Below are positions 5,143 through 9,809 of a stretch of DNA of 10,121 nt, one piece after another. The notes under the pieces were generated by a model. That model did not search any database, was not told the origin of the DNA, and saw nothing but the letters and a program-made list of their open reading frames with translations. The first letter of the stretch is position 1. Each line of letters begins with the position of its first letter. A program made the position numbers and the translations under genes. The stretch spans positions 1-10,121 of the forward strand of contig JAUWXV010000130.1 of assembly GCA_030616165.1 (NCBI GenBank), in the 5' to 3' direction. The stretch is from a bacterium. GTDB taxonomy: Bacteria > SM23-31 > JAUVVT01.

Positions 5143-5240
5143 ATATTTATCAAAAAATAAGAATATTTGTAGGGGCTTGATTCATCAAGCCCGAAATTAT
5201 TGTGTGTCATCCGAACAGATATTTATCAAAAAATAAGAAT
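5143..5240. repeat. 22-bp direct repeat duplicating the 3' end of ecfT around a REP element
   Basis: Bases 5143-5164 and 5219-5240 are identical over 22 bp. The second copy is coding, near the C-terminus of EcfT. The first lies in the ecfT-truA spacer and would read, on the minus strand, FLFFDKYIFE then stop, against FLFFDKYLFG then stop in the gene, so the similarity runs past the exact repeat through the stop codon. The REP-like palindrome at 5169-5192 lies between the copies. Confidence 0.75.
5169..5192 (+). repeat. GTAG-headed REP palindrome, copy 1 (CTTGAT stem)
   Basis: GTAG (5169-5172) is followed by GGGCTTGAT (5173-5181), two bases, and ATCAAGCCC (5184-5192): perfect 9-bp arms. A GTAG tetranucleotide at the foot of a hairpin is the known form of REP elements recognised by RAYT transposases. 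Same orientation as the four copies near the RAYT remnant. Confidence 0.8.
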
Positions 5241-8378: not shown

Positions 8379-8403
8379 GTAGGGGCTTAATATATTAAGC
8401 CCC
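8379..8403 (+). repeat. GTAG-headed REP palindrome, copy 2 (CTTAAT stem)
   Basis: GTAG at 8379-8382 overlaps a perfect 22-bp palindrome at 8382-8403 (GGGGCTTAATA and its complement). The stem differs from the ecfT copy by a paired change (CTTGAT/ATCAAG to CTTAAT/ATTAAG), so pairing is kept. Confidence 0.8.
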
Positions 8404-8423
8404 GATTGTATGAATCTCATTTT

Positions 8424-8449
8424 GTAGGGGCAGACCTGTGTGTCTGCCC
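8424..8449 (+). repeat. GTAG-headed REP palindrome, copy 3 (AGAC stem)
   Basis: GTAG (8424-8427), GGGCAGAC (8428-8435), a six-base loop CTGTGT, and GTCTGCCC (8442-8449). Together with flanks, bases 8416-8450 are identical over 35 bp to 8760-8794 inside the RAYT remnant. Confidence 0.85.
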
Positions 8450-8735
8450 ATATCTATAAATTAAACATCAAAATAAAAATTATAATTTTCAGTAATGATA
8501 AAATAAGAATGAAAAAAATAGAAGGAAGTCCCTTAGATTGCCAGGATATGATTATACACAAAATGGAGCGTATTTTATTACAATTTGTACACATAAAAGG
8601 GAATTGCTTTTAGAATCAGAAAAAGCGAAAAGTATGATTACTACATTCTGGCACAAATTACCAAAAAAATTTTCACATATTATTATTGACAAATTTGTAA
8701 TAATGCCCAATCATATTCATGGAATCATGTTTATT

Positions 8736-8760
8736 GTAGGGGCAGACCTGTGTGTCTGCC
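8736..8760 (+). repeat. GTAG-headed REP palindrome, copy 4, inside the RAYT remnant
   Basis: Matches copy 3 over 25 bases from GTAG to CTGCC and then continues with T instead of C. It is read in the RAYT frame as VGADLCVC, directly after MPNHIHGIMFI. Confidence 0.88.
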
Positions 8761-8767
8761 TCATTTT

Positions 8768-8793
8768 GTAGGGGCAGACCTGTGTGTCTGCCC
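8768..8793 (+). repeat. GTAG-headed REP palindrome, copy 5, inside the RAYT remnant
   Basis: Identical to copy 3 over the full 26-bp unit, and with flanks (8760-8794) over 35 bp. Its first bases supply the TAG (8769-8771) that closes the N-terminal RAYT fragment. It is separated from copy 4 by the seven bases TCATTTT. Confidence 0.88.
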
Positions 8794-8959
8794 ACTATTA
8801 TGAACATATCATTCGAAAAGAAAAAGAATTGCATGAAATAAGAAAATATATTCAAGAAAATACTATAAAATGGGAATTGGATAAAGATAATCCCATAAAT
8901 TGGAATAGTGGTGAACATGGGGATTTGCCCTAACATTTAAAAGAAATCAGAAATAAATT

Positions 8960-9525: not shown

Positions 9526-9809
9526 AACTTTTGTAAATTTTTATTAGCATACTTTAAAATTATTACAGTGCATCTGTCATCCTGAATTCTGTGCTGAACT
9601 TAATTCAGTATTATTTCAGGATCTATTTATTTCAGCATCTAAATAATCAAGAAAACAATAGATTCTGAAGATCCTGAACCCTGTGCTGAACTTGATTCAG
9701 TATTGTTTCAGGATCAGAATGACAGGGCTATATTTTATTTAGTTTTAATGGCTTTAAAATAGCATAAAAATATCAAAATATTATGCATTTTTGAAAATTT
9801 ACAAAAGTT
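9526..9809. repeat. Perfect 16-bp inverted repeat framing a 284-bp segment (MITE-like)
   Basis: AACTTTTGTAAATTTT (9526-9541) is the exact reverse complement of AAAATTTACAAAAGTT (9794-9809). The segment between them contains the 152-bp palindromic repeat block and no ORF. I see no clear target-site duplication outside the arms, so a miniature mobile element is only a suggestion. Confidence 0.5.
9574..9725. repeat. Duplicated 45-bp palindromic repeat (ATCCTGAA...TTCAGGAT family)
   Basis: Two units, 9579-9623 and 9671-9715, match at 41 of 45 positions and start 92 bp apart. Each is self-complementary: ATCCTGAA at the start pairs with TTCAGGAT or its near form at the end, and an inner CTGAA pairs with TTCAG. 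The outermost CTGTCAT (9574-9580) and ATGACAG (9719-9725) form a further inverted pair, so the block as a whole has inverted ends. I recall similar CCTGAA/TTCAGG repeats between genes of many environmental bacteria. Confidence 0.75.

Follow-up and report, generated by a model that had tools for sequence, protein, structure and literature searches.

In the window, i.e. the whole 10,121-nt stretch of DNA that was analysed, the reading frame of a RAYT (TnpA-REP) gene runs through the HuH motif MPNHIHGI into two direct GTAG palindromes and is taken up again in the same frame from YYEHIIR. This arrangement raises the question whether the gene was broken by invasion of REPs, as proposed in an earlier note, or whether a REP at this position belonged to the gene before it decayed. 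The features of the locus are listed below, each with the evidence on which it is based.

8379-8403, + strand: shorter second GTAG palindrome upstream (GTAGGGGCTTAATATATTAAGCCCC) (sequence, folding; a similar one at 5169)
8424-8449, + strand: upstream REP of the same variant, the flanking REP of the RAYT unit (sequence, folding)
8508-8735, + strand: RAYT N-terminal half (NEKNRRKSLRL...MPNHIHGIMFI), HuH present, start codon not found (translation, profile match, paralogue alignment)
8736-8760, + strand: REP copy 1 (GTAGGGGCAGACCTGTGTGTCTGCC), 25 nt, read as VGADLCVC, at the usual position for subclass 2.4 (sequence, folding, homologue comparison)
8760-8794, + strand: 35-nt identity to 8416-8450, comprising copy 2 and 8 nt of left flank (CTCATTTT) (sequence comparison)
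8768-8793, + strand: REP copy 2, 26 nt, direct orientation (sequence, folding)
8769-8771, + strand: in-frame TAG stop provided by the GTAG of REP copy 2 (translation)
8796-8933, + strand: RAYT C-terminal part (YYEHIIRKEKELHEIRKYIQEN...NSGEHGDLP), stop codon at 8931-8933 (translation, alignment)
8912-8934, - strand: weak candidate for a degenerate REP in inverted orientation, 3' end of the gene (GTTAGGGCAAATCCCCATGTTCACC) (sequence likeness only)

The translation from position 8508 reads NEKNRRKSLRLPGYDYTQNGAYFITICTHKREL...FVIMPNHIHGIMFIVGADLCVCLIL, followed by a stop and then GQTCVSAHYYEHIIRKEKELHEIRKYIQEN.... The coordinates 8736-8793 of the palindromes, their nature as REPs, the common frame of the flanking coding parts and the classification as a RAYT pseudogene, all given in the earlier note, were borne out by the sequence and by folding. 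The continuous frame described there holds in so far as both sides share one phase, but this frame is not open, as it contains the TAG and has no start codon. At the start position of the homologues no in-frame ATG was detected, and an in-frame TAA is located at 8499-8501. With a stop inside the frame and the start codon missing from its expected position, the gene at 8508-8933 is a pseudogene of the family without the status of a working member, and a complete open frame with the W(Q) motif is lacking, the WQRN segment and helix alpha-C being gone as well. The N-terminal half is matched by the NCBIfam profile NF047646 REP_Tyr_transpos (E 3.5e-9, under the curated cut-off) and by Pfam Y1_Tnp (E 0.0064, under the cut-off). 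The NHIH sequence, at a position that is invariant in 40 homologues, represents the HuH motif of the Y1 HUH family. The catalytic tyrosine helix (YIxxNP) is represented by KYIQEN, in which the tyrosine and the asparagine are retained and the proline is replaced, and the tyrosine aligns via a paralogue with Y115 of E. coli TnpA-REP (4ER8).

REP copies 1 and 2 are direct repeats placed 32 nt apart with 25 identical nucleotides, and the third identical copy lies upstream of the gene. These copies fold as GTAG followed by a stem of 7-8 bp with a 6-nt loop, and only 0-1 of 200 shuffled sequences folded equally well; the candidate at the 3' end of the gene was rejected as a REP, since its fold is no better than that of the shuffles (z 0.42). 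The palindromes accordingly have the architecture of GTAG REPs, in which 0-2 nt separate the GTAG from a stem that is rich in GC and 7-20 bp long, with a loop slightly longer than the 2-5 nt of the rule quoted in PMC6006769. Copy 1 begins four residues past HIHG, is read in the VGA phase and constitutes an in-frame REP between HuH and Y, the frame then being closed by copy 2. The 35 nt that copy 2 has in common with the upstream REP include 8 nt to the left of the GTAG. Apart from the REPs of the RAYT gene, two related short GTAG palindromes are present at 5169 (GTAGGGGCTTGATTCATCAAGCCC) and 8379.

An intact RAYT paralogue is encoded in the same genome on contig C207 (MPNYIHGIIFLNDTDSNSEMKRMNANTPKDKVFVGADPRVCPQKEKDGEHMGSPLPMIGHIVQWFKTMTTNEYI...WQRNYYEHIIRN), and the N-terminal half of the broken gene is identical to it in 40 of 67 residues. 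The linker of this paralogue contains a translated in-frame REP pair, with VGADPRVCP encoded by the forward and GEHMGSPLP by the inverted copy. The alignment with this intact gene, which the earlier note had suggested, thus revealed both a linker REP pair and the residues missing from the broken copy: 51 residues located between VGADPRVCP and YYEHII, at the low end of the 50-80 originally estimated. Lost from the broken copy are the inverted arm of the REP pair, the invariant W-Q of WQRN and helix alpha-C together with its invariant lysine, including the columns K127, W151 and Q152 that are invariant in 40 homologues; HuH, the tyrosine and the following asparagine were retained. What is distinctive at this locus is therefore the lesion itself, namely the loss of the inverted arm, alpha-C and WQRN together with a second direct REP at the join. 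No clear microhomology was found at this join (REP copy 2|ACTATTATG). Mismatches to C207 at codon positions 1/2/3 amounted to 26/11/30 and 10/5/17; since they are fewest at position 2, the decay appears recent relative to the divergence from C207, and this pattern suggests that selection acted on the gene during most of the period after the two copies split. An ortholog with the same neighbours was not found, and no RAYT adjoined the neighbouring transporter gene in those loci of relatives that were read. The ancestral state was for this reason taken from the paralogue, which is 60% identical at the protein level.

Directly upstream of the intact paralogue, at 1362-1451 of locus L009 (G000:C207), a 66-nt piece of a RAYT coding region (DKFVIMPNHIH) was observed together with a REP, and the left edge of this fragment falls in TGTTTCAG, which is common to another repeat. 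The window also contains a 45-nt direct repeat of another type (9579-9623 and 9671-9715, 91% alike; ATCCTGAA..GTGCTGAACTT..TTTCAGGATC), and similar sequence lies to the left of the RAYT fragment on C207.

Whether a REP in the linker is an accident of this copy or a property of the family was assessed with 80 homologous loci from many phyla, yielding 75 intact genes that were read. Of the GTAG hairpins in these genes, 104 fell into the linker between HuH and Tyr, 0 into the part preceding HuH and 3 into the part that follows the linker. These counts take in both readings of perfect double-ended palindromes and may carry a small bias to one REP type, as KEKDGEHM, a peptide used with five others as query, includes part of a REP. 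The respective means of 50 synonymous-codon shuffles were 1.38, 0.02 and 0.16. At least one linker hairpin was present in 55 of the 75 genes (control, 1.3 genes), and 32 of these 55 showed the forward-then-inverted order of an inverted pair. The first forward REP starts 4-11 residues past HuH in 40 of the 51 genes having one, and forward linker REPs are read 46 times in the VGA phase, 10 times in a second phase and never in the phase that reads TAG. These data clearly indicate that RAYT genes of this subclass normally carry a linker REP immediately behind HuH. They also agree with two suggestions of the earlier note, that the site behind HIHG is a recurrent one and that VGADL-type peptides follow HIHG in other RAYT proteins, the latter being translated linker REPs; REPs scattered over RAYT genes, or a homologue lacking both the central region and the repeat, were not encountered among the homologues. 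A pattern search for GTAGGGGC within 30 nt of HIHG was positive in 9 of 193 genomes, the source genome included. In an AlphaFold model of the intact homologue L036 (mean pLDDT 84.8), a single internal loop was predicted with low confidence (pLDDT 53-65); it consists of the residues encoded by the REPs and is placed between the strand 81-88 and the helix 118-139, with adjoining core blocks above 90. In L064, the linker carries three tandem forward REPs that encode VGVQNIEP three times, which suggests growth of the loop by REP units.

In 14 of 33 loci, the linker REP was identical to a flanking REP (swap control, 0.13). Where the two are identical in the homologues, the match is confined, with few exceptions, to the REP unit, and carry-over of flanking sequence was therefore rejected as a general rule. 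Within the source genome, the REP type of the broken gene (CAGACC) was found in five copies at up to three mismatches (reversed-pattern control, 0), three of them at the broken gene and two at the C207 gene, each locus having its own variant. The high copy number expected of GTAG REPs was thus not seen for the CAGACC type, as all five copies lie at two RAYT loci. The related CGAACC type, which is the pattern of the inverted arm of C207, is dispersed in the genome with 16 exact pattern matches. Among 18 sampled stretches of the source genome, none of 41 other REPs was located in an open frame of at least 120 codons. Since the same variant is present upstream of the gene and the type is absent outside the two RAYT loci, the REP is plausible as a putative substrate of the RAYT itself. 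A perfect double-ended REP (GTAGGGGCGGTTCGTGAACCGCCCCTAC) was noticed at 712-739 of L183 (G000:C42), a contig that also has two copies of GTAGGGGCGACTCACTGTGGTCGCCC.

Short palindromes that are read in frame, like the linker REPs, are also known as Rickettsia palindromic elements in genes, although these represent an unrelated element without a tie to the gene of a presumed transposase. GTAG REPs inside unrelated genes have been described (PMC3733652, 2013); they resemble the linker REPs in being translated within genes and tolerated in loops, but are scattered over genes and positions, whereas here one fixed loop in the presumed mobiliser's own gene is concerned. The closest known system is TnpA-REP subclass 2.4. 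According to PMC6006769 (2018), it is a unique feature of this subclass that the tnpA-REP gene itself contains REPs, in general located between HuH and Y, which leave the frame intact, and all RAYT group 4 sequences were placed in it. As described there, HuH and Y motifs with a long and variable distance, flanking GTAG REPs and intragenic REPs that keep the frame are present, while the broken copy differs in the absence of alpha-C, WQRN and a start codon and in its two direct linker REPs with a stop. The broken gene is best explained, judging by these features, as a decayed member of RAYT group 4/TnpA-REP subclass 2.4. The linker REP of this subclass is thus already published, and the present data add counts, order, phase and identity with flanking REPs, some of which the supplementary figures of PMC6006769 may show. 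Accordingly, the event represents a known habit of the family in a decayed copy and not a new kind of event.

Other RAYT remnants were inspected for the position of their breaks. In the same genome, a half gene on C302 (L021) begins at the linker REP and the 66-nt fragment upstream of the C207 gene ends at the REP; a pattern search yielded ten further loci, seven of them with an intact gene and three with a break at the linker REP or just behind it, L118 being without the alpha-C region and L123 and L125 without the C half. The remnants C38, C56, C259 and C339 are cut elsewhere. With five other remnants broken at or near it, the linker REP looks like a recurrent breakpoint in this small sample. 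In genome G005, the loci L157, L159 and L161 hold translated REP pairs (e.g. VGADPCVCP..GEHTGSPLRRIGYLIQWFK) without the HuH half and appear as further RAYT remnants that retained the REP and the start of alpha-C.

The reading that we favour, with a probability of roughly 0.72, is a group 4 RAYT with a normal linker REP loop that decayed by deletion and copying from the upstream REP. We infer that in the ancestral gene the HuH strand was connected to helix alpha-C by a loop of translated REP DNA, which in this subclass is typically an inverted pair with the GTAG outward, and that copy 1 would be the forward arm of this loop in its original register. The gene would then have been broken by loss of helix alpha-C, the WQRN segment and what remained of the loop, and another forward REP, which matches the upstream REP and includes a short piece of its left flank, would have come to sit at the join. 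The break most likely arose when a deletion associated with the repeats or hairpins was accompanied by local copying of the upstream REP, by template switch or illegitimate recombination. The anatomy of the locus, the usual condition of the homologues, the lost parts and the shared flank are direct observations, the order of events and the mechanism are inferred. By comparison, it is highly improbable that the gene was intact and its linker free of REPs until two of them inserted there and destroyed it, the invasion proposed in the earlier note; in favour of this reading are the two copies at the break and the mobility ascribed to REPs. An in-frame linker REP is, however, the usual condition, present in 55 of 75 intact homologues and published for the subclass in PMC6006769, and an insertion alone would not take away about 51 residues; the damage is to be sought in the loss of alpha-C and WQRN and in the second direct copy, not in the linker REP itself.

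An attractive rival is cleavage by the enzyme itself, in which the linker REP would be taken as a substrate, nicked at nearby CT dinucleotides and joined by strand transfer to the upstream REP with its flank, so that the linker REP would act as a self-limiting switch. Its appeal lies in the cleavage of single-stranded REPs at CT on either side by TnpA-REP of groups 2 and 3 (PMC8266576) and in the two joins, which both read C|T (GCC|TCATTTTGTAG on the left, CAC|TATTATG on the right), and breaks at or near linker REPs recur. However, CT is common, which makes two matches weak evidence, the right end does not agree with the first CT behind the upstream REP (CCCATATC|T), three bases being different, the literature consulted here yielded no assay of a group 4 enzyme, and the restriction of identical copies elsewhere mostly to the REP unit does not fit a transfer that includes flank. 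This explanation is therefore considered unlikely. The wider proposal that a group 4 RAYT keeps a private substrate copy in its loop as a built-in break point, its activity cutting and limiting its own gene and the present locus being one product, is likewise unlikely. An assembly chimera, the contig crossing between RAYT copies through a common repeat, may be suspected in a 343-contig assembly in which several RAYT copies (C20, C199, C273 and C316) are cut off by a contig edge within the linker repeat and the repeat in question measures 35 nt. This length is below the final k-mers of usual assemblers, though, the REP variant is confined to this locus within the genome, and the two halves are consistent with a single decaying gene read in a common frame; a chimera is likewise quite improbable.

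The locus itself is one decayed example. The numbers obtained from the homologues show that one RAYT subclass carries a REP in a single loop, that this REP is often identical to the REP beside the gene and that remnants tend to break there. With a REP in the loop, its identity with flanking copies and the breakage at this position, action of the enzyme on its own gene becomes a testable hypothesis.
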